Positions 12,022 through 24,116 of a stretch of 64,000 nucleotides of DNA are shown here, piece by piece; within the stretch, counting starts at the first letter, position 1, and every line of letters begins with the position of its first letter. The position numbers and the translations under genes are program-made. A model generated the notes under the pieces. It was not told the DNA's origin. It worked only from the letters and a program-made list of their open reading frames with translations, and made no database searches. Source of the stretch: Thiobacillus denitrificans (GTDB lineage: Bacteria; Pseudomonadota; Gammaproteobacteria; Burkholderiales; Thiobacillaceae); the NCBI GenBank assembly GCA_020723405.1, contig DYIY01000012.1, positions 1 to 64,000 on the forward strand, written 5' to 3'.

Positions 12022-12073
12022 TTACAACCCCACACAGGCCGGACACGGCTCCCTTACAGGCGCTGCCTAGACT
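12022..12073 (+). promoter_or_regulatory. Promoter with TTACA direct repeats (copy 1)
   Basis: TTACA occurs at 12022-12026 and 12054-12058 (32 bp apart, three helical turns) with ACACA/ACAC triplets between at about 11-bp phase. A TAGACT -10-like hexamer follows at 12068-12073. The same layout precedes the paralogue at 18484. The pattern resembles direct-repeat sites of OmpR-type response regulators. Confidence 0.5.
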
Positions 12074-12127: not shown

Positions 12128-12622
12128 ATGAACACCACTCGCATCGCCAAAATCCTGGGCCTGGCCGCCCTGTCCTCCCTGTCCCTCCTGTCCGGCGCCA
12201 GCCAGGCGGATGGCTGGGGCTTTTACGTGAACAACGGCTTCCCCCCGGCGCCGGCCTTCATGCCCCCGCCCCCCATGGGCAAGCCCGGCGCCTGGTGCCC
12301 GCCCCAGGTGGCTCCCCGGGTGGCCTATCAGCCGGTGAACGCCGCCCAGGCCGATCAACGCGAGCGCATCTTCCAGGGCATCCGGTCCGGCCAACTGACC
12401 CAAAGGGAAGCGGAGGAACTGTTCCGCGACCAGCGCAAGATCGACAAGGTGGAACAACGCTACCTGGCCGACGGCCGCCTCACCCGGGGGGAATGGGCGG
12501 ACCTGAACGACCGCCTGCGGGAATCCTCCCGGGAGATCTACGAGGAGAAGCACGACCGGGATCGCTACGGCCAGCACTACGGCCATGGCCGGGATCACGG
12601 CCACCCGTGGGGCTGGTATTGA
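12128..12622 (+). CDS. Small secreted helical protein with GxLTxxE motifs (paralogue A)
   Basis: 164 residues, start supported by AAGGAG six nt upstream. Signal peptide to about residue 27 (LSLLSGASQA). A proline-rich segment (FPPAPAFMPPPPMG) precedes a helical core, RIFQGIRSGQLTQREAEELF and [19 protein letters not shown], with two GxLTxxE-type turns reminiscent of degenerate EF-hands, then a tail rich in histidine and aspartate (HDRDRYGQHYGHGRDHGHP) that could bind metal. The core is clearly homologous to the product of 18484-18981. This is a widespread but, to my knowledge, uncharacterised proteobacterial type. A response-regulator-like promoter lies upstream. Confidence 0.75.
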   Translation: MNTTRIAKILGLAALSSLSLLSGASQADGWGFYVNNGFPPAPAFMPPPPMGKPGAWCPPQVAPRVAYQPVNAAQADQRERIFQGIRSGQLTQREAEELFRDQRKIDKVEQRYLADGRLTRGEWADLNDRLRESSREIYEEKHDRDRYGQHYGHGRDHGHPWGWY

Positions 12623-12655
12623 GGCTCCATCCCGGATGGGGACGGGGAGCCCGGC

Positions 12656-13465
12656 TCAGGGCTCCGGACGGCAGGCGTGCAGGACCGCCAACAGGTCAGC
12701 CCTGGCGAAGTCCCCGCCCCGGCAGGTTGCCAGGGCCGCGAGCAACCGCCTGGCGGCCGGGCTGCCCAGCCCGTCCCCCCCTGGGAGCCGGGGGCCCCCA
12801 TGCCCGGACCGGTTGAGGTCCGGCCGGATCAGGCCGGCCAGCACCCTTTCCGGGTCGGCCACGGCCAGGTCGCAATGGCGGGCCAGGTCTTCAATGACCC
12901 GGCTGCCCCGCCGGAACCAGTCCTCGTAATGGACGACGTGGCAATCGGCCCGGGTATGCCACAGGGCCTCCCAGGTCCGGCGCAGCCACACCGCCTCGGC
13001 CGTCCCGGCGTCCACCCCGTAGGCGGCCATGAAGGAGCGGATCACGCTGTCCGGTTGCCGCAGGGCCAGCAGGTAGCGGGGCGCCAGGTCCCGCGCCGCG
13101 AACAGTTCCTGCCAGAGGGGCAGGAAGGGAGCGGTGCGGGGGTCCTTGAAGCCCCACAGCCCGGTTGCCCGGGCCAGCCGGTCGTCCAGCAGGGCCCCCA
13201 GGTCCCGGGCCGCTTCCCGGGTGGCCGGATGGTCCAGCCAGTCCGTCGGCAACGGGTGGAAAGGCCAGGCCCCCAGGCTGCGCATCAGGTCGGCCTGGCG
13301 GCGGACGAGGGCGGCGTCCTCGTAGAAGCCCTCCGGATTGTCCGGCCGGGCCGCGATGAGCTGCTCGGACACGGCCATGCCCAGGCCGGCCAGGGCTTGC
13401 ATGAGCAGGGAGGTGCCGCTGCGGCCGGAACCCAGGACGACGACCAGGGGGCGGGGTGAATTCAT
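12656..13465 (-). CDS. Sulfotransferase-family protein
   Basis: 269 residues from ATG 13465. Residues 8-20 (VVVLGSGRSGTSL) form the PAPS 5'-phosphosulfate-binding loop of sulfotransferases, and a later R-x-P-D-S-V-I-R-S-F segment (LRQPDSVIRSFMAAYG) matches the 3'-phosphate-binding motif. Expected reaction: transfer of sulfate from PAPS to a hydroxyl of a sugar, lipid or small molecule. A TACAAT -10-like hexamer on the minus strand at 13475-13480 ends only nine nt before the start, implying an almost leaderless mRNA. It is divergent from the TPP enzyme and probably part of the same cassette. Confidence 0.8.
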   Translation of the reverse strand: MNSPRPLVVVLGSGRSGTSLLMQALAGLGMAVSEQLIAARPDNPEGFYEDAALVRRQADLMRSLGAWPFHPLPTDWLDHPATREAARDLGALLDDRLARATGLWGFKDPRTAPFLPLWQELFAARDLAPRYLLALRQPDSVIRSFMAAYGVDAGTAEAVWLRRTWEALWHTRADCHVVHYEDWFRRGSRVIEDLARHCDLAVADPERVLAGLIRPDLNRSGHGGPRLPGGDGLGSPAARRLLAALATCRGGDFARADLLAVLHACRPEP

Positions 13466-13474
13466 GATCGCGGC

Positions 13475-13480
13475 ATTGTA
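13475..13480 (-). promoter_or_regulatory. -10-like element of the sulfotransferase gene
   Basis: TACAAT on the minus strand ends nine nt before the ATG at 13465, predicting a very short or absent 5' leader. No convincing -35 is seen. Confidence 0.35.
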
Positions 13481-13607
13481 GGGGAGCCGGCCGGGGAATC
13501 CTGCCGTCCGAGCCCTGCACGCATTCCGTTGGGGCCCGTCTTGTGCTCCAATTCCCTCCTTTTCGGCGTCCGCCGGCGCGGCTGTTTTCCGGTTCCGCGC
13601 CCCTGTC

Positions 13608-15263
13608 ATGAAAATCACCGTCAGCGAACTGATCGTCCGTTATCTGGAGCGGCTCGGCGTGCACGTCCTCTTCGGCATGCCGGGGGCCCACGTATTGCCG
13701 ATCTACGATCGCCTGCACGGTTCGGCGGTGAAGAGCGTGCTGGTCAAGCACGAACAGGGCGCGGCCTTCATGGCCGGGGGCTATGCCCGGGTGTCCCACC
13801 GGGTGGCGGCCTGCATCGCCACTGCCGGTCCCGGCGCCACCAATCTCGTTACCGGCATCGCCAACGCCCACGCGGAACGCCTGCCGGTGCTGGTGATCAC
13901 CGGCGAGACCTCCACCTACATCTTCGGCAAGGGAGGGCTCCAGGAGAGCTCAGGGGAGGGAGGCGCCATCGACCAGTGCGCCCTGTTCGCCGGCATCACC
14001 CGTTACCGGAAACTCATCGAGCGCACCGACTATCTGGGCCAGGTGCTCAATCGGGCCGCCCAGGCCCTGCTGGGCCCCGACCCGGGCCCCGTGTTGCTGT
14101 CCATTCCCTTCAACGTGCAGAAGGAACTGGTGGACGCAACCCTCCTGGACCAAGTGCACATCCCCCACCCGTCCGCCCCGATGCCCGTTGCCGCCGGCCC
14201 GCTCCCGGAATTGGCCCGCCTCATCCGCGAGGCCCGCTATCCGGTACTGGTAGCGGGTTATGGGTGCATCCGTGCGGGCGCCCGGGGCGAAGTGACCCGC
14301 CTGGCCGAAGCCCTGAACATCCCGGTGGCCACCAGCCTGAAGGGCAAGGGCGTGGTGCCGGAAGGTTCGCCCCTGTCCCTGGGCTGTCTGGGCGTCACCT
14401 CCAGCGGTGAGGCCTACCGCTATATCGTGGAGCAGGCGGACCTGCTGGTCTTCCTGGGGGCCGGTTTCAACGAGCGCACCAGCTACCTGTGGGACGAACG
14501 GCTCCTGGCCGGCAAGCGCATCGCCCAGGTGGACCGGGACGCCGCCCAACTGGGCAAGGTGTTCCAGCCGGACGTGGCCGTTCACGGCGACATCCGCGAC
14601 GTGGCGGGGGAACTCCTGGACCGGCTGGCCGACTGTCCGGCCAAGGACCTGGACCGCCTGGCCGCCCACCGCCTGGCCGCGCCCGAGCCCGCCCGGGGCG
14701 GTGAACGGGAGCGCTTCCGGCTCATGGAAGCCTTCTTCGTCCACCTGGCCCGGCGCTTCCCCGAGGATGCCCTGATCTTCGACGACAACATCGTCTTCGC
14801 CCAGAGCTTCCTGGACGTGTCCCACGCCAATCACTATTTCCCCAATTCCGGCATCTCCTCCCTGGGCCATGCCATTCCCGCCGCCATCGGCGCCCGCTTC
14901 TTCCTGCCCGAGGCCCCCACCTTCGCCATCCTGGGGGACGGGGGCTTCCAGATGTGCTGCATGGAGTTGATGACCGCCGTGAACTACGGCATTCCCCTCA
15001 ACACCGTGGTCATCAACAACGGCAGCATGAGCCTGATCCGCAAGAACCAGTTCCAGCTCTATGGCGAGCGCTACATCGACTGCGATTTCGTCAACCCGGA
15101 CTTCGCCCTGCTGGCCGCGGCCTTCGGCATCCGCCACCACCGGATCGGCAGCGAGGCCGACCTGGACACCCTGTTCGCCCAGGCCGACCTGCAAGGTGGC
15201 CAGAACCTCATCGAGATCCTCCTGGACAAGCATGTCTTCCCCAGCTACCTCTCGGCACGCTGA
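13608..15263 (+). CDS. Thiamine-diphosphate-dependent enzyme, acetolactate-synthase-like
   Basis: 551 residues with the three-domain layout of the ThDP decarboxylase/AHAS family: pyrimidine-binding N-domain with the catalytic glutamate E49 (VLVKHEQGAAFMAGGYAR), a central domain, and a C-terminal pyrophosphate-binding domain with G443-D-G445 followed by NTVVINNGS about 30 residues on. It therefore should bind ThDP-Mg and decarboxylate a 2-keto acid, ligating the two-carbon unit to an acceptor. No regulatory small subunit (ilvN) is nearby and the context (GT-like, CapK-like, sulfotransferase genes) argues against branched-chain amino acid synthesis. The next gene overlaps its end by 32 nt. Substrate unknown. 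Confidence 0.82.
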   Translation: MKITVSELIVRYLERLGVHVLFGMPGAHVLPIYDRLHGSAVKSVLVKHEQGAAFMAGGYARVSHRVAACIATAGPGATNLVTGIANAHAERLPVLVITGETSTYIFGKGGLQESSGEGGAIDQCALFAGITRYRKLIERTDYLGQVLNRAAQALLGPDPGPVLLSIPFNVQKELVDATLLDQVHIPHPSAPMPVAAGPLPELARLIREARYPVLVAGYGCIRAGARGEVTRLAEALNIPVATSLKGKGVVPEGSPLSLGCLGVTSSGEAYRYIVEQADLLVFLGAGFNERTSYLWDERLLAGKRIAQVDRDAAQLGKVFQPDVAVHGDIRDVAGELLDRLADCPAKDLDRLAAHRLAAPEPARGGERERFRLMEAFFVHLARRFPEDALIFDDNIVFAQSFLDVSHANHYFPNSGISSLGHAIPAAIGARFFLPEAPTFAILGDGGFQMCCMELMTAVNYGIPLNTVVINNGSMSLIRKNQFQLYGERYIDCDFVNPDFALLAAAFGIRHHRIGSEADLDTLFAQADLQGGQNLIEILLDKHVFPSYLSAR

Positions 15264-17046
15264 AGCCGGCTCCCCGGCCCTGGTGGCCCAGCGCCAGACC
15301 ATCGCCCGCCTTGAAGCCGCCCTCTGGGAGGGTGGCTTCAACGAAAAGCACCTGCCCGCCTACCAGGCTGCCTGGCGGCACCTGGAAAACCTCATGGCCG
15401 CCACCGGAAACCCCGACCCGCGCCACGGCTTCTTGCTGGTGATTCCCGTGGCCGACAGCCCCCGGCACCTGGCCACCTGCCTGGACAGCCTGCTCGCCCT
15501 GTGCGAGGCCTACGGCTATGGCGGCCGCACGGCAGCCGGCCAATGGCGCAAGCTGTCCGTGCTGCTGGCCGACGACTCCGCCGAGGCCGCCGCCCTGGCC
15601 CGCCACCGGGCCCTGGCGGATGACTACCGGGCCCGGGGCCTGCGCATCCATTACTTCGGCCCCGGGGAGCAGATGGCCCTGCTGGACGGCCTGGCCCACC
15701 TGGACCTGACCCCCGTGGTGGGCCACCACGCCCGCCCCGGCTTCGGCCACAAGGGCCAGGCCATGATGCGCAACATCGCCTATCTGCAGGTGGCGGCCAT
15801 GGCCGAGGCGGAGAGCCGGGCCCTGGGCGGCCCCCTGCTCTGCTACACCCTGGATGCGGACCAGACCTTCCAGGTGAAGGTGGCCACGGCGGCCGGGGAC
15901 GCCCAGGTGGCGGCCCTGAGCTTCTTCCACCAGATGGACGCCATCTTCCAGGACGCCTCGGTCCGGGTCCTCACCGGCAAGGTGGTGGGAGATCCCCCCG
16001 TGTCCCCGGCGGTGATGGCCGGCAACTTCCTGGACGACGTGCTCGCCTTCCTGGCTGAGATGGCCCACACCGAAGCGGGCCTGCCCTATCCCCGCCACAT
16101 CGCCAGCACCCGGGGATCGGGAGAGGCCGCCTACCACGACATGGCCGACCTGTTCGGCTTCAGGGCCGGGGGCGAGACCTACCGCTTCCGCTGCGGGCTG
16201 GCGGGGGAACCGGACAACGCCGCCTGCTTCGCCGACTTCGCCCGCCGCCTGAACCGCTTCTTCCACGGCGAGCATCCCACCCGGGTCACCTACTACCGCC
16301 ACGAGGACGCCCTGGCCTCCCTGGCCCCGGCCCGCACCGTCTATACCGGCAACTACGTGTTCCGCCCGGACGCCCTGGACTGGTTCATCCCCTACGCCCC
16401 CCTGCGCCTGCGCATGTCGGGCCCCACCATGGGCCGCCTCCTGAAGGCGGAGCTGGGGGACGGCTTCGTCGCCGCCAACCTGCCCATGCTGCACCGGCGC
16501 ACCCTGGACGACACCGGCCAGTCGGAATTCCGCCCCGGCGTGGTGGACCGGGACGCCCTGGTGGATCTGTCGGACGAGTTCGAACGCCAGTTCCACGGCG
16601 ACGTGCTGCTGTTCGCCATGGAACGGCTCACCGCCCGGGGCTACCCGGCCAGCCCCCTGGAAGAAGCCACCGTCCGGACCGTGCTGGCTGACACCCGGGC
16701 CGACATGGCCCGCCGCTACCGGGACAAGCAGGCCGCCATGCTGGCCCGCCTGGCCCGCCTGGACAGCGTGTTGGATGACCCGGGCCACTGGTGGAACCAG
16801 AACGGGCAACATCGGGAAGCCGTGGCCCGCTTCCGCACCTTCGCCGACAACCTGGCGCGCAATTTCGGCCCCCGGGCCCTGGCCCAGGCCCTCCTGGACG
16901 ATCCCCAACGGCTGGCCACCTGGCAGGCCCGGCAAATGGACGCCATCCTGAACCTGCCCCGCCACCGCCAGACCTGGCGCCAGGCCCTGGCCCGGCTGAC
17001 TCCCCCTCCCGGCGGAAAGGTGGTGGAAGGCGGGACTCTGGTCTAG
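15232..17046 (+). CDS. GT2-like glycosyltransferase-type protein, large and unusual
   Basis: 604 residues if translation starts at ATG 15232, inside the TPP gene; no clear ribosome site is visible and a GTG near 15283 is an alternative. About residues 65-110 (GFLLVIPVADSPRHLATCL ... KLSVLLADDSAE) resemble the first strands of a GT-A fold, and YTLDADQTFQVKV near residue 208 supplies a D-x-D motif for metal-nucleotide-sugar binding. The remainder, including a helical C-terminal region of about 150 residues, matches nothing I recognise. Encoded between a ThDP enzyme and a CapK-like protein, it probably modifies a shared product. Family assignment is tentative. Confidence 0.6.
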   Translation: MSSPATSRHAEAGSPALVAQRQTIARLEAALWEGGFNEKHLPAYQAAWRHLENLMAATGNPDPRHGFLLVIPVADSPRHLATCLDSLLALCEAYGYGGRTAAGQWRKLSVLLADDSAEAAALARHRALADDYRARGLRIHYFGPGEQMALLDGLAHLDLTPVVGHHARPGFGHKGQAMMRNIAYLQVAAMAEAESRALGGPLLCYTLDADQTFQVKVATAAGDAQVAALSFFHQMDAIFQDASVRVLTGKVVGDPPVSPAVMAGNFLDDVLAFLAEMAHTEAGLPYPRHIASTRGSGEAAYHDMADLFGFRAGGETYRFRCGLAGEPDNAACFADFARRLNRFFHGEHPTRVTYYRHEDALASLAPARTVYTGNYVFRPDALDWFIPYAPLRLRMSGPTMGRLLKAELGDGFVAANLPMLHRRTLDDTGQSEFRPGVVDRDALVDLSDEFERQFHGDVLLFAMERLTARGYPASPLEEATVRTVLADTRADMARRYRDKQAAMLARLARLDSVLDDPGHWWNQNGQHREAVARFRTFADNLARNFGPRALAQALLDDPQRLATWQARQMDAILNLPRHRQTWRQALARLTPPPGGKVVEGGTLV

Positions 17047-17062
17047 GCCCCCGTCCCGGCCC

Positions 17063-18343
17063 ATGATCTTCCCCCTGCGCCACGGCCTCCATCGCCTGCG
17101 CTATCCGGAGCGCTACGCCCAGCTCGACCGCCTGCTGGCCAACCAGTCCCTCGGGCCCGTTACCCTGGCACGACAGCAACGGGAAGCCCTGGCCGCCATC
17201 GCCCACCACGCCCGGACCCGGGTCCCCTACTACGCCCGGCGCCTGGCCGACTGGGACGGCAACCCCGCCACCCTGCCCATCCTCACCAAGGAGGACGTGC
17301 GCACCCACCTGGACGACCTGCTGGACCGCGACGCCGATCGGACCCGGGTGGGCCTGGGCCACACCGGCGGCTCCACCGGCCAGCCCCTGGCCTTCTGGTA
17401 CGACCAGGCCAAGCACGAACTCATGCGCGCCGGCATGATGCGCGGCTTCATGATGTCCGGCTGGCGGCCGGGCCAGAAGGTGCTCTACCTGTGGGGCGCC
17501 CGCCAGGACACGGGGAAGGGCGGCGTCTTCGCCAACCGCCTGACGGATCTGCTCGCCGGGGAACGCACCGTGGCCGCCACGGCCTACAGCGACGCCCTGC
17601 TGGATCAGTGGATCCAGCTGATCCGCCGCTGGCGTCCCACCCTGCTCTACGGTTACGCCTCGGCCCTCCACGAACTGGCCCGGAGGATCCTGGAACGGAA
17701 GCAGACCCTGCCTACCAGCCTCATAGGCGCCTACTCCACCGCCGAAATGCTCCTGGAGGACCGGCGCAGCCTCATGGAGCGGGCCTTCGGCTGCAAGGTC
17801 TTCAACCAGTACGGCTGCCGGGAAGTGCCCAACATCGCCTGGGAATGCCGCCATGGCGGCATGCACGTCATGGCCGATCTGGTCCACCTGGAAGCGGTGC
17901 CCACGGACGGGGAGGATCGGCTCCTGGTCACTTCCCTGACGAACCGGCTCATGCCTTTCATCCGCTATGAACTGGGAGACGCAGGCCGTCTGCTGGAAGG
18001 TGCCTGTCCCTGCGGGTCGCCCTTCCCCCGCATGGAGATGGGCCTGTGCCGTCACAACGATTTGATCCGCACCCCCGGGGGGAAAACGGTCCATCCGGCA
18101 GTGTTCAATCGTCTGCTGTACGGGCTTACCCAGGTCCGCCAATACCAGTGGCGCCAAGTGGCCCCGGACCGGATGGCCCTGGATCTCCTCTGCCCCGCTC
18201 CCCTGGCCCCCGAGCAGGTGGCCGCGCTGGAGCGGGCGCTGGGGGCCCAGGTGGACCAGGCCATGGCGCTGGAGATCCATTACCCCGCCGCCATCGCGGC
18301 CACCGCTTCCGGCAAGCAGCGCTACATCATCGGCCTGGGGTGA
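17063..18343 (+). CDS. CapK/PaaK-like adenylate-forming protein
   Basis: 426 residues. The GHTGGSTGQPLAFWYD segment near residue 100 is the phosphate-binding loop of phenylacetate-CoA ligase-type enzymes; GAYSTAEMLLEDRRSLMERA and the FNQYGCREVPNIAWEC stretch correspond to the adenine-binding region, and LMPFIRYELGDAG to the conserved Y-x-x-G-D motif. CapK-type members act in capsule or lipid biosynthesis rather than phenylacetate breakdown. It begins 16 nt after the GT-like gene on the same strand. The likely role is activation of a carboxylate as acyl-AMP; substrate and acceptor are unknown. Confidence 0.8.
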   Translation: MIFPLRHGLHRLRYPERYAQLDRLLANQSLGPVTLARQQREALAAIAHHARTRVPYYARRLADWDGNPATLPILTKEDVRTHLDDLLDRDADRTRVGLGHTGGSTGQPLAFWYDQAKHELMRAGMMRGFMMSGWRPGQKVLYLWGARQDTGKGGVFANRLTDLLAGERTVAATAYSDALLDQWIQLIRRWRPTLLYGYASALHELARRILERKQTLPTSLIGAYSTAEMLLEDRRSLMERAFGCKVFNQYGCREVPNIAWECRHGGMHVMADLVHLEAVPTDGEDRLLVTSLTNRLMPFIRYELGDAGRLLEGACPCGSPFPRMEMGLCRHNDLIRTPGGKTVHPAVFNRLLYGLTQVRQYQWRQVAPDRMALDLLCPAPLAPEQVAALERALGAQVDQAMALEIHYPAAIAATASGKQRYIIGLG

Positions 18344-18371
18344 CCGCGCCGCCCGCTCCGGAAACACCTGC

Positions 18372-18424
18372 TTACATCTTCACAACAGACAGCCAACAAG
18401 GCGCTTACAGCCGGCCCCTAGAGT
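18372..18424 (+). promoter_or_regulatory. Promoter with TTACA direct repeats (copy 2)
   Basis: TTACA at 18372-18376 and 18405-18409 (33 bp apart), ACAACA/CCAACA between them, and a TAGAGT -10-like hexamer at 18419-18424. The order and spacing match the promoter of the paralogue at 12128, one nucleotide longer. Confidence 0.5.
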
Positions 18425-18483
18425 GGGAAGCGTCCGCTGACGAACAGATCAAGGCGGCTCTCAACCCAAACTGGAGTGAAATG

Positions 18484-18981
18484 ATGAACATCGCCAAAAA
18501 CGTAAAAACCCTGTGTGTCCTCAGCCTTGCCACCCTGGGGCTCCATGCCGGCGCCAGCCTGGCCGATTTCGATGGGCACCGGGACGGATTCCGTGGCAAC
18601 CCCTATCTGCAAGGCCCAGCTCCCACCCAGTTCGACGGCGCCTTCAAACAGCAGATCGCCCAGTTGGATGCCCGCCTTGACGAGCAACTGCAGCGGATCC
18701 TGGATGGCATGGAGAACGGCCGGGTGACCATGCTCGAGGCCATCCACCTGTTGCAGGAGCACCAGGCCATCAATGCCCTGGAGCGCAAGTACCTGCGCGA
18801 CGGGCGTCTCGGCCCCTACGAGCTGGCCGACCTGGATCGGCGCATGGACGTGGCCAGCCAGCACATCCGCTGGGAAAAGCGTGACGCGGACCGGGCTGGG
18901 CTGAAGAGCTCCTATGAAGGGCGCTTCGCAGGTCCCTTTGCGGGTCCCTTCCCTGGTCCCTTCGAGGGCGGTCGTCGCTGA
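18484..18981 (+). CDS. Small secreted helical protein with GxLTxxE-like motifs (paralogue B)
   Basis: 165 residues from ATG 18484, preferred over ATG 18481 because GGAG then sits seven nt upstream. Signal peptide to about residue 25 (LATLGLHAGASLA). The core, RILDGMENGRVTMLEAIHLL and YLRDGRLGPYELADLDRRM, aligns with the product of 12128-12622, including the QxxI-xxxE spacing and the HIRWEKRDADR end. The tail differs: three GPF repeats (GPFAGPFPGPF) replace the histidine-rich tail. It shares the TTACA promoter type with its paralogue, so both are probably co-regulated. Envelope stress or metal sensing is possible but not shown. Confidence 0.75.
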   Translation: MNIAKNVKTLCVLSLATLGLHAGASLADFDGHRDGFRGNPYLQGPAPTQFDGAFKQQIAQLDARLDEQLQRILDGMENGRVTMLEAIHLLQEHQAINALERKYLRDGRLGPYELADLDRRMDVASQHIRWEKRDADRAGLKSSYEGRFAGPFAGPFPGPFEGGRR

Positions 18982-20143: not shown

Positions 20144-22171
20144 TTAGTGGGCGGCGGGCTTGAACAGCTTGGACTTGTCCACCAGGTCCACGTGGCGACG
20201 CTTGAAGTTCGTCCACTTCTTGGTGTTCTTGTCGTAGATGGAGTTGCCGAAGACCTTCCAGTTCTCTTCGTCCACGAAGTTCTTGTCGGTCCGGTAGTAG
20301 AAACCGGGATAACGAGACTCTTCACGGAACTGGATGTGCTTCATGTGGGCTTCGGCCGTCAGGATGCGGTGGTAGTTTTCCCAGGCACGCAGCAGTTCAT
20401 GCAGATCCTTGGCGCGCATCTTCATGGCGTCTTCTTTCAGCATTTCCAGCTTCTGCTCGGCGACTTCCAGCATCTTGTCGTTGGTGTTGTAGTAGGTGGC
20501 CACACCGGCAACGTACTCGTCCATGATCTTCTGCAGACGGAATTGCAGCATCTTGGGGGTGATGTAGTTGGGGTTGACGTCGATGGCCGTGGTGTAGTCC
20601 TTGAACTCCAGGTAGGTACGGACCGGACGGTAGATCTCTTCGACCAGGGCGTCGACGGGGGTGTCGAGCTCGACCTTCAGATCCTTGTTGTCCAGGCAGT
20701 ACTTGACCATGGCACGGGCGGCCAGACGGCCTTCGGTGTGGGAACCGGAGGAGAACTTGTGGCCGGAAGCGCCAACGCCGTCACCGGCGGTGAACAGGCC
20801 GTTCACGGTGGTCATGCCACGATAGCCCCAGCTCCAGCCACGGGGCAGGTGAGCCGGCACGCCGTCGATCTCGGGATCGGCAGCGGTGGGGGCGCCCACG
20901 TCGGTAGGACCGGACACCCAGATGCCGCAGCAGCCGGAGTGGGAACCCAGCAGGTAGGGCTCGGTGGGCATCAGCTCGGAGTTCTTCTTCTCGGGCTCGA
21001 CGTTCTCACCCACCCAGATGCCGCACTGGCCGACGCACATGTCCAGGAAGTCTTCCCAGGCTTCGGCTTCCAGGTGCTTCACCTCGCGGGGGGACAGGGT
21101 CTTGGCCAGGTTGCCCAGGGCGGTGACGGTGTCCATCCAGATCGGGCCACGGCCTTCCTTCATTTCCTTCAGCATAACGTGGTTACGCAGGCAGGAAGCG
21201 GGAACGGCGGCTTGGCCGTAGGGGGGGTACTGGTCCAGCATGGCCTTGTTCTTGGCCAGGTAGTCTTCGCCGTAGCCGTTGGTGGCCTTGGCCTTGAACA
21301 GCAGGAACCAGGCACCGACCGGGCCGTAGCCGTCCTTGAAGCGGCAGGGCACGAAGCGGTTTTCCATCATGGTCAGCTCGGCGCCGGCTTCGGCAGCCAT
21401 GGAGTAGGTGGAGCCGGAGTTCCACACGGGGTACCAGGCGCGGCCGGTACCTTCACCCACGGAGCGGGGACGGAAGATGTTCACGCAACCACCGGCGGCC
21501 AGCAGGATGGTCTTGGCCTTGTACACGAACAGCTTGTGCTCGCGGGTGGAGAAGCCGACGGCACCGGCGATGCGGTTCTTGTCGGCGGCGTCGTTCACCA
21601 GCTTGACGATGAACACGCGCTCCTGGATGCGGTCCATGCCCAGGGCCTTCTTGGCGGCTTCAGCGACGATCCACTTGTAGGATTCGCCGTTGATCATGAT
21701 CTGCCACTTGCCGGAACGCACGGGCTTGCCGCCGTCCTTCAGGGAGGGCAGGCCTTCGCCGATGGCGGCGGCGCCGTCGTGACGCTCGCCGTTGGCGTCG
21801 GTCTTCCAAATGGGCAGGCCCCACTCTTCGAACAGGTGCACGGAGTCGTCAACGTTGCGGCCCACGTCGTAGGCCAGGTCGTCACGGGTGATGCCCATCA
21901 GGTCGTTGGAGACCATGCGGGCGTAGTCGGCGGGGTCCTGAGCGTCGCCGATGTAGGTGTTGATGGCGGACAGGCCCTGGGCCACGGCGCCGGAGCGGTC
22001 CATGGCGGCCTTGTCGACCAGCTTGATCTTCAGGTCCACGCCGGCTTCGGCCTTGGCGACCTCGGCCCAGCGCATGACTTCATAGGCGGCGCCGCAGCAG
22101 GCCATGCCACCACCGATCAGCAGGATGTCGACTTCTTCCTGGATGACGTCGGGATTTCCAAATTCAGCCAT
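20144..22171 (-). CDS. aprA: Adenylylsulfate (APS) reductase, alpha subunit
   Basis: 675 residues, full length for AprA. The N-terminal FAD-binding motif is visible (DILLIGGGMACCGAAYEVMRW, residues 15-34 region), with further flavin-domain stretches (KTILLAAGGCVNIF, GLFTAGDGVGASGHKFSSG). In sulfur oxidisers the enzyme works in reverse, condensing sulfite with AMP to APS and delivering electrons to the membrane via AprB and a Qmo or AprM partner. It follows aprB by 19 nt. Neither aprM nor qmoABC lies in this window. Whether the lineage is oxidative rather than reductive is inferred from the oxygen-respiring gene content. Confidence 0.95.
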   Translation of the reverse strand: MAEFGNPDVIQEEVDILLIGGGMACCGAAYEVMRWAEVAKAEAGVDLKIKLVDKAAMDRSGAVAQGLSAINTYIGDAQDPADYARMVSNDLMGITRDDLAYDVGRNVDDSVHLFEEWGLPIWKTDANGERHDGAAAIGEGLPSLKDGGKPVRSGKWQIMINGESYKWIVAEAAKKALGMDRIQERVFIVKLVNDAADKNRIAGAVGFSTREHKLFVYKAKTILLAAGGCVNIFRPRSVGEGTGRAWYPVWNSGSTYSMAAEAGAELTMMENRFVPCRFKDGYGPVGAWFLLFKAKATNGYGEDYLAKNKAMLDQYPPYGQAAVPASCLRNHVMLKEMKEGRGPIWMDTVTALGNLAKTLSPREVKHLEAEAWEDFLDMCVGQCGIWVGENVEPEKKNSELMPTEPYLLGSHSGCCGIWVSGPTDVGAPTAADPEIDGVPAHLPRGWSWGYRGMTTVNGLFTAGDGVGASGHKFSSGSHTEGRLAARAMVKYCLDNKDLKVELDTPVDALVEEIYRPVRTYLEFKDYTTAIDVNPNYITPKMLQFRLQKIMDEYVAGVATYYNTNDKMLEVAEQKLEMLKEDAMKMRAKDLHELLRAWENYHRILTAEAHMKHIQFREESRYPGFYYRTDKNFVDEENWKVFGNSIYDKNTKKWTNFKRRHVDLVDKSKLFKPAAH

Positions 22172-22190: not shown

Positions 22191-22664
22191 TTACTTGCGG
22201 ATCAGTTCGGCGGGGTTGCCGGCGCGGAAACCGCCCATCACACCAGCGGTGAAGTTGCCCACGGCCTGAATGTCGGCCAGGGTGGGCACGGGCTTGCCAC
22301 CGAACGGGTCGATGGAGCCTTCCGGGGTGGTACGGATGGGGAACTTGAAGCGCTTCAGCACGCCGTTGCGGAACTTGATGGTCCACATGATGGAGTCGGA
22401 GCCGCGCAGGGGCTGCACGGAACCGCCCAGAGGCACCACGTCGGCGTAGTGGCGGGCTTCGATGGCCTGCTGGGGGCAGATCTTCACGCAGGAATAGCAT
22501 TCCCAGCACTGCTCGGGTTCCTGGTTGAAGGACTTCATGGCGTGGCCGGTCTCGGAACCATCGCGGTCCAGTTTCATCAGGTCGTGCGGGCAGATGTACA
22601 TGCAGGCGGTCTTGTCTTGACCCTTGCAACCGTCGCACTTGTCGGTACGGACGAAGGTAGGCAT
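22191..22664 (-). CDS. aprB: APS reductase, beta subunit
   Basis: 157 residues with two [4Fe-4S] sets: C10, C13, C21, C25 and C53, C56, C59, C63 (the second in EQCWECYSCVKICPQQAIEA). It passes electrons between the AprA flavin and the membrane. The C-terminal tail that wraps AprA in known structures is present. It lies 19 nt ahead of aprA and 234 nt after sat; the intervening region holds a repeat element but no gene. An AGGAGTG ribosome site precedes the ATG at 22664. Confidence 0.95.
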   Translation of the reverse strand: MPTFVRTDKCDGCKGQDKTACMYICPHDLMKLDRDGSETGHAMKSFNQEPEQCWECYSCVKICPQQAIEARHYADVVPLGGSVQPLRGSDSIMWTIKFRNGVLKRFKFPIRTTPEGSIDPFGGKPVPTLADIQAVGNFTAGVMGGFRAGNPAELIRK

Positions 22665-22898: not shown

Positions 22899-24116
22899 TC
22901 AAGCGGCGGAATGCCCCTTCAGTTCCACCTTGACGTTCTGCTCGGCGGTGAGGCCCTGGTAGTATTTCTTCAGCACGGCGGCGACTTCGGGACGGCTGAA
23001 CTCCACGGGCAGGTCCTGGCCTTCGGAGAGCATGGCGCGGACCTTGGTGCCGGACAGCAGGATGCGGTCATCCTTGGTGTGGGGGCAGGTACGCTGGGAG
23101 GCCATGCCGCCGCACTTGTTGCACCAGAAGGTCCAGTCGATGTTCATGTTCTTGGTTTCCAGGGCGCCGGCGGGGATCTCGTCGAAGATCTTCTGGGCGT
23201 CGAAGGGGCCGTAGTAGTCACCCACGCCGGCGTGGTCCCGGCCCACGATCAGGTGGGAGCAGCCATAGTTCTGGCGGAACAGGGCGTGCAGCAGGGCTTC
23301 GCGGGGACCGGCATAACGCATGTCCAGGGGGTAGCCGGCCTGGATCACGGTGTTGGGGGCGAAGTAGTTGTCGATCAGGGTGGCGATGGCCTCGGAGCGC
23401 ACTTCGGCGGGAATGTCGCCCGGCTTCAGGGCGCCCAGCAGGGAGTGGACCAGCACGCCGTCCATGGTCTCGATGGCGATCTTGGCCAGATATTCGTGGG
23501 AGCGGTGCATGGGGTTGCGGGTCTGGAAGGCAGCCACGCGGGTCCAGCCCATTTGCTTGAACTTGGCGCGGGTCTCGGCGGGGGTCATGAACTGGTCGCC
23601 GTACTTTTCCTTGAAGCCGCCGTCGGACAGGACCTTGACCGGGCCGGCCAGGTTGATGGGTCCCTGGTCCATGACCATCTTGACGCCGGGGTGGGCCAGA
23701 TCGGTGGTCTTGTAGACCATCATGCACTCGTGGCCCTTGTCGATGCCGTAGATCTCGGTGACCTTCATGGTGCCCATGATCTCGCCGGTCTCGCTGCTCA
23801 CCAGGGCCACGTCCTGGCCCAGGGTCAGGGTCTGGGCGGTCTGGGTGTCGGTGGAGAGGGTGACGGGGATGGGCCAGAACAGGCCGTTGGCCATCTTGTA
23901 GCCGTCGCACACGCCCTGCCAGTCGCCGTGGGTCATGAACCCTTCCAGGGGGGTGAAGCCGCCAATGCCCATCATGATCAGGTCGCCGGTCTCCCGGGAG
24001 GACATCTTGATCTTGGTGAGGCTCTGGGCGCGGGCCAGTTCAGCGTCGCGGGCGGCGCCTTCGAGCAGCAGAGGCTTCAGTTCGTCTCCGCCGTGGGGGT
24101 TCACCAGTCGGGTCAT
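22899..24116 (-). CDS. sat: Sulfate adenylyltransferase (ATP sulfurylase)
   Basis: 405 residues, the normal length of the homo-oligomeric dissimilatory enzyme. Active-site motifs are present: [17 protein letters not shown] (H-x-x-H) and [13 protein letters not shown], plus a zinc-like C-x2-C...C pattern (WCNKCGG...CPH). In sulfur oxidation it makes ATP from APS and pyrophosphate, releasing sulfate, and so completes the pathway begun by AprBA. It is the first gene of the sat-aprB-aprA unit. The upstream 24117-24333 region carries AT-rich sequence and TGATTAG/CTAATCA half-sites suitable for promoter and regulator binding. Confidence 0.96.

Follow-up and report, generated by a model that had tools for sequence, protein, structure and literature searches.

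What do the unlike enzymes encoded side by side at 12,128–18,981 of a Thiobacillus denitrificans contig make, and do they belong together? The window studied here is a whole stretch of 64,000 nucleotides, part of contig C41 of a 4.15-Mb genome assembled in 42 contigs. The original prediction described a four-enzyme cassette comprising a sulfotransferase (P0001), an acetohydroxyacid synthase (AHAS)-like thiamine diphosphate (ThDP) enzyme (P0002), a large glycosyltransferase-like protein (P0003) and an adenylate-forming enzyme (P0004), bracketed by two homologous small secreted proteins (P0005 and P0006) and making a sulfated surface or secreted compound. All six genes were found among the open reading frames (ORFs) of the window. 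Comparison with related loci gave a result that is broader in the core formed by P0002 and P0003 and in its tie to dsr, and narrower in the four-gene set and the bracket, which are local to the window's clade. On balance, we think that the cassette is a biosynthetic module in which two enzymes are constant and the third can be exchanged, and that its small sugar-derived product would have a role in Dsr-type sulfur oxidation or in a process running beside it.

P0003 is present in 116 of 199 relatives, the T. denitrificans genome itself counted. In the species genome collection, a profile built from 22 P0003 proteins retrieved 315 related stretches. The best 80 (loci L080–L159) together with 20 class-level stretches, all fetched for P0003, gave a set of 100 loci with a mean length of 14.4 kb, L123 and L185 being duplicates. 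The taxa among the 80 loci include Thiobacillus, Sulfuricella, Sulfurisoma, Sulfuriferula, Sulfurimicrobium, Thiodiazotropha, Thiolapillus and the endosymbionts of Escarpia and Lamellibrachia.

In 98 of the 100 loci P0003 is immediately preceded by P0002 on the same strand; P0002 was not found in L195 and L200. In the window, P0002 occupies 13608..15263 and P0003 15232..17046, both on the plus strand, so that the start ATG of P0003 at 15232 overlaps the P0002 gene; an alternative start is the GTG at 15283. The overlap, already proposed from the window, is real: 51 of 99 rows (the window and the 98 loci, including one duplicate pair) have an in-frame ATG that starts 32 nt upstream of where the ThDP stop codon ends, and an ATG between −40 and +30 is found in 39 of the remaining 48. 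Codon usage was uninformative as an argument for the overlapping ATG. P0002 and P0003 are thus the closely coupled conserved core of the module. Reading frames longer than 1000 aa in G032, G041 and G059 (959 aa in G046) suggested a fusion of the ThDP enzyme with P0003. This candidate was rejected, as the two genes occupy different frames in both cases checked by coordinates (L067, which is G032, and L069, which is G041).

The core pair follows dsrA, which was called at E ≤ 1e-40, with oxidative and reductive types counted together. Among 82 genomes of the order outside the window's family, 17 are dsrA-positive and 10 carry P0003, all ten being dsrA-positive. Of the 368 other genomes in the class sample, 117 are dsrA-positive and 22 carry P0003, these 22 again all being dsrA-positive. 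These 22 carriers span 14 families, all of them within the 59 dsrA-positive families, which gives a family-level p of 1e-7 to 7e-7 if 150–168 families are assumed. No dsrA-negative carrier outside the window's family was found in the order and class samples. In the phylum sample P0003 occurs in 3 of 398 genomes: that of T. denitrificans itself, a second from the same family and a third from the same order. Moreover, 11 of the 100 fetched stretches contain aprA, presumably the gene of adenosine 5'-phosphosulfate (APS) reductase, against roughly 0.5 expected for 3-Mb genomes; it is located downstream on the opposite strand in nine loci and upstream on the same strand in two. The link to dsr-type sulfur metabolism is the strongest one obtained, and it was absent from the earlier interpretation.

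Several observations weigh against a role in sulfur oxidation. The hypergeometric p-values for P0003 and dsrA (9e-9 in the order, 2.6e-12 in the class) are inflated by genome relatedness, the lineages behind both the dsrA and the aprA statistics being related and not independent. Only 22 of the 117 dsrA-positive genomes of the class sample carry P0003, which is therefore not needed for Dsr. Within the window's family, 10 of the 105 other P0003-positive genomes have no dsrA match at 1e-40, all ten being at most 91% complete, and one class-level P0003 match (G338) is a broken fragment. Finally, aprA is found in 21 of the 22 carriers and in 45 of 58 dsrA-positive non-carriers, no clear difference (p 0.097; 80 of the 117 dsrA-positive genomes covered), and the candidate role of aprA as the trait that splits carriers from non-carriers within dsrA-positive genomes was not supported.

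P0002 contains three thiamine pyrophosphate (TPP) domains, and its best NCBIfam match is acolac_lg with 351.8 bits. It might thus be taken for an acetohydroxyacid synthase serving branched amino acids, with neighbours that are unrelated to it. We consider this extremely improbable. The score lies below the curated cut-off of 538, P0002 is conserved alongside P0003, no ilvN-like ORF is present at the locus in the ORF list of the window, as the original prediction had it, and contig C42 of the same genome carries a separate group that we take from its translations to be ilvB-ilvN-ilvC. The AHAS II positions F109, K159, M250, R276 and W464 presumably form the acceptor site. In 88 aligned full-length, stop-free members of the P0002 family, the window included, the catalytic Glu and the Asp of the GDG motif are invariant, whereas all five acceptor-site residues are replaced: F109 by L in 88; K159 by Y in 60, F in 26, H in one and C in one; M250 by V in 85 and I in three; R276 by G in 69, S in 13 and A in six; W464 by N in 85 and T in two, with a gap in one. 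The genome's own IlvB keeps all five. Because ilvB-ilvN-ilvC is encoded elsewhere and the acceptor-site residues are replaced, P0002 is not, as judged by sequence, the housekeeping IlvB. It is similar to IlvB in its ThDP-enzyme domains and catalytic Glu, and differs from it in the acceptor site, in the lack of an adjoining small subunit and in the score below the NCBIfam cut-off.

The nearest solved relative of P0002 is the ThDP enzyme BbmA (288 bits). Another, matched at 186 bits, is CsmA, whose function is described in excerpts of PMC12395478 and PMC13307353. According to an excerpt of PMC12247030, YerE-type ThDP enzymes make branched lipopolysaccharide (LPS) sugars; a ThDP carboligase acting on a nucleoside diphosphate (NDP)-sugar is the kind of reaction that we propose for P0002. 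However, no chain so named is among the best 60 of 161 PDB matches to P0002, and no close relationship with YerE was seen.

Searched alone, P0003 matches neither a Pfam model at E 0.1 nor an NCBIfam model at E 0.01. In single scans of the 22 members, two touch Pfam Glycos_transf_2 (best E 0.058), three touch DUF6271 (best E 0.002), and one each touches SnoaL_2 (E 0.0013) and DUF6586 (E 0.0036); the window protein has no match to Glycos_transf_2. A search of PDB sequences with the P0003 profile (hmmsearch) yielded only two weak matches, to polyphosphate kinase (best E 0.29). The predicted structure is of good quality, with a predicted local distance difference test score (pLDDT) of 85.7 and a predicted template-modelling score (pTM) of 0.87. 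Glycosyltransferases make up most of the 50 Foldseek matches listed. Whole-chain template-modelling scores are low among these 50, and we take the structural matches to belong to the GT-A class. Structural re-alignment (VIA-align) placed MtdL first (Z 17.2, 3.1 A, 295 of 371 residues), the first non-MtdL row being chondroitin polymerase (Z 15.1, 3.3 A, 206 residues aligned). Residues D207 and D209 (numbering of the 15235 translation), H420 and R422 are invariant in the 22 members, D207/D209 forming the DxD. According to an excerpt of PMC9937993, MtdL, a GT75 NDP-pyranose mutase, belongs to the GT-A class and carries a DDD motif and His287-x-Arg289. P0003 is thus predicted to have a GT-A fold with a DxD motif; the "GT2-like" label of the original prediction holds only as a resemblance of fold, and no match to the family was recovered for the window protein.

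A more specific form of the favoured explanation, and one compatible with it, is that P0003 is a metal-dependent NDP-sugar ring mutase, similar to GT75/MtdL, which would supply a furanose sugar nucleotide that P0002 would then branch. The margin of MtdL over the next structural match and the invariant residues comparable to its DDD and His-x-Arg motifs point in this direction. On the other hand, P0003 has about 600 aa compared with about 375 aa in MtdL, its sequence matches no PDB chain to a meaningful degree, and an equivalent of Arg159, the catalytic (autoglycosylated) residue of MtdL, could not be placed. Besides, GT-A enzymes in general carry a metal-binding His in their C-terminal part. 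The fold shared with MtdL does not mean a shared function, and we regard the mutase activity as unlikely.

The third gene of the window set, P0004 (17063..18343, plus strand), encodes a putative PaaK/CapK-like adenylate-forming ligase: all its NCBIfam and Pfam scores are under the cut-offs, and phenylacetate-CoA ligase chains from PDB match it at E 1e-21 to 1e-9. Its slot is exchangeable. Within 2.6 kb of P0003 we found a P0004-type ligase in 51 loci, a gene of the sulfotransferase-like type STFc3 in 28, one of the type STFc2 in six, and none of these in 15, five of which end within 1.4 kb of P0003. No locus of the 100 holds two types together. The ligase was counted by tblastn because the clusters c21 and c43 lie antisense over its gene. 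On the ThDP tree of 95 rows (FastTree, local supports only) the state of the slot requires at least nine changes, gains and losses being indistinguishable. Among 20 other class-level genomes, a P0004 homologue occupies the slot in G461 (45% identity), four genomes have distant homologues elsewhere (25–33%), and 15 have none at E 1e-20.

The STFc2 gene, located on the opposite strand and present in 14 loci of a first set of 40 relatives' stretches, matches PF13469 at 25.8 bits, just below the cut-off of 27. STFc3 has only about 178 aa, and a homologue scores 16.2 bits against the same cut-off. One of its five models reaches a mean pLDDT of 87.9, the other four 63.0 to 81.6. SULT7A1 is the first Foldseek match (E 2.1e-5, root-mean-square deviation 5.6), with shikimate kinase close behind (E 5.1e-5) and differences between the five models. 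To judge by the first structural match, STFc3 may resemble sulfotransferases that use 3'-phosphoadenosine 5'-phosphosulfate (PAPS; Sulfotransfer_3, SULT/TPST fold); it is set apart from them by its small size, and shikimate kinases fit the model about equally well. Near STFc3-type loci (L134, L136, L137, L138, L148, L150, L154, L158 and others) a gene recurs, matched in 17 of the 100 loci, that we take to be class-I-methyltransferase-like.

The sulfotransferase of the window itself, P0001 (12656..13465, minus strand), is of the PAPS type and passes PF13469 with 34.3 bits. Its homologues were found in four of the 100 loci (L080, L081, L082 and L153), the nearest to the window on the tree, and a profile of six sulfotransferases detected a sulfotransferase in ligase-type loci only there and in the window. 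The co-occurrence expected for the four enzymes therefore holds in part: far outside this genome P0002 and P0003 are again accompanied by a third enzyme, whereas the complete four-gene set is confined to the window and these four loci. The T. denitrificans genome contains 18 stretches matched by Sulfotransfer_3 (e.g. on C10, C34, C36 and C37), many for one bacterium, so finding one of them close to the pair says little on its own. Nor do the four enzymes form a single transcription unit, since P0001 (to 13465) is on the minus strand and divergent from P0002-P0003-P0004, which begin at 13608.

If the module acts as we propose, P0003 would transfer or isomerise an NDP-sugar, and P0002, using a pyruvate-like donor, would form or cleave a C–C bond in this sugar or in its acceptor. 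The third enzyme would then modify the product: a P0004-type ligase by acyl-adenylation, a sulfotransferase-type enzyme by transferring sulfate from PAPS. A bolder version, which we regard as quite improbable, is that the core pair makes a new low-molecular-weight sugar-based cofactor or sulfur carrier with which a subset of Dsr-type oxidisers would move or hold reduced sulfur, and which would be acylated or sulfated depending on lineage.

The same enzymes could instead make a surface glycan sugar (for LPS, capsule or exopolysaccharide) and track sulfur oxidisers by shared habitat or ancestry, with no part in sulfur chemistry. Glycan loci often contain sulfotransferases and CapK-like ligases, and the GT-A fold of P0003 and the LPS-sugar chemistry of YerE-type enzymes agree with such a role. 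Against it stand the linkage to aprA and the dsrA-positive state of every sampled P0003 genome from outside the window's family. Also, no polymerase, flippase or exporter was recognised in the clusters that recur in at least 10 of the 80 loci and the window, each cluster being read from representatives and one, of about 930-aa proteins, through part of one member. No pointer to the surface or secreted product of the original prediction was thus found, and we judge a surface glycan somewhat unlikely.

From left to right the region of the window reads P0005 (+), P0001 (−), P0002 (+), P0003 (+), P0004 (+), P0006 (+), a CxxCxxCC protein and aprA-aprB-sat (−). The last three genes (20144–22171, 22191–22664 and 22899–24116, all on the minus strand), named from their translations, presumably encode APS reductase (aprA and aprB) and ATP sulfurylase (sat). 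The adjoining CxxCxxCC protein (YkgJ-type, PF03692; 19053..20003, minus strand) has a homologue beside aprA in all 11 aprA-holding loci (L080, L082, L115, L118, L132, L151–L153 and L190–L192) and may have a part in the function or maturation of APS reductase.

The bracket proteins proved to be a separate matter. P0005 (12128..12622, plus strand), with an N-terminus that looks by eye like a signal peptide, and P0006 (18481..18981, plus strand, starting at 18481 or 18484) match each other at E 1.4e-15 with 37% identity and have no other match in the genome below E 0.2. The promoter-like element TTACAGNCGNNNCCTAGA lies upstream of P0005 at 12054..12071 (plus strand), with a second TTACA 32 bp farther up at 12022; its second copy, before P0006, is at 18405..18422 (plus strand), with a second TTACA at 18372. 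At no more than one mismatch the element has exactly two sites in the 4.15-Mb genome, those before P0005 and P0006; at no more than two mismatches there are two in the window against 0.14 expected. It also stands with no mismatches before the 36%-identical P0005 homologue in L080 and L153. The homology and common promoter architecture of the pair, as originally described, are therefore confirmed, and P0005 and P0006 are probably co-regulated with each other. With the second TTACA placed 32–33 bp upstream and steps of about 11 bp, the element resembles an OmpR/PhoB-type site and is possibly the target of a two-component regulator. As a feature of the cassette the bracket did not hold: a homologue is found near it in only two of the 100 loci (21 of the stretches reach less than 4.2 kb upstream of P0003, where one could be missed), and so P0005 and P0006 are outside the conserved module, a separate pair flanking the cassette in the window's lineage. 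A DsrE-family protein (PF02635; 11487–11912, minus strand), also with a signal-peptide-like N-terminus by eye, adjoins P0005.

In the titles and starts of abstracts retrieved from open-licence PubMed Central literature we found no description of this gene set, which is not proof of its being unpublished. A gene pair that follows dsr across many families of the class, in free-living bacteria as well as in animal symbionts, is a handle on the poorly understood parts of sulfur oxidation. Since a ligase and sulfotransferase-like proteins replace each other in one slot, different versions of a single product are to be expected. The P0003 family, for which there is no Pfam or NCBIfam model, gains a predicted fold and a biological setting.

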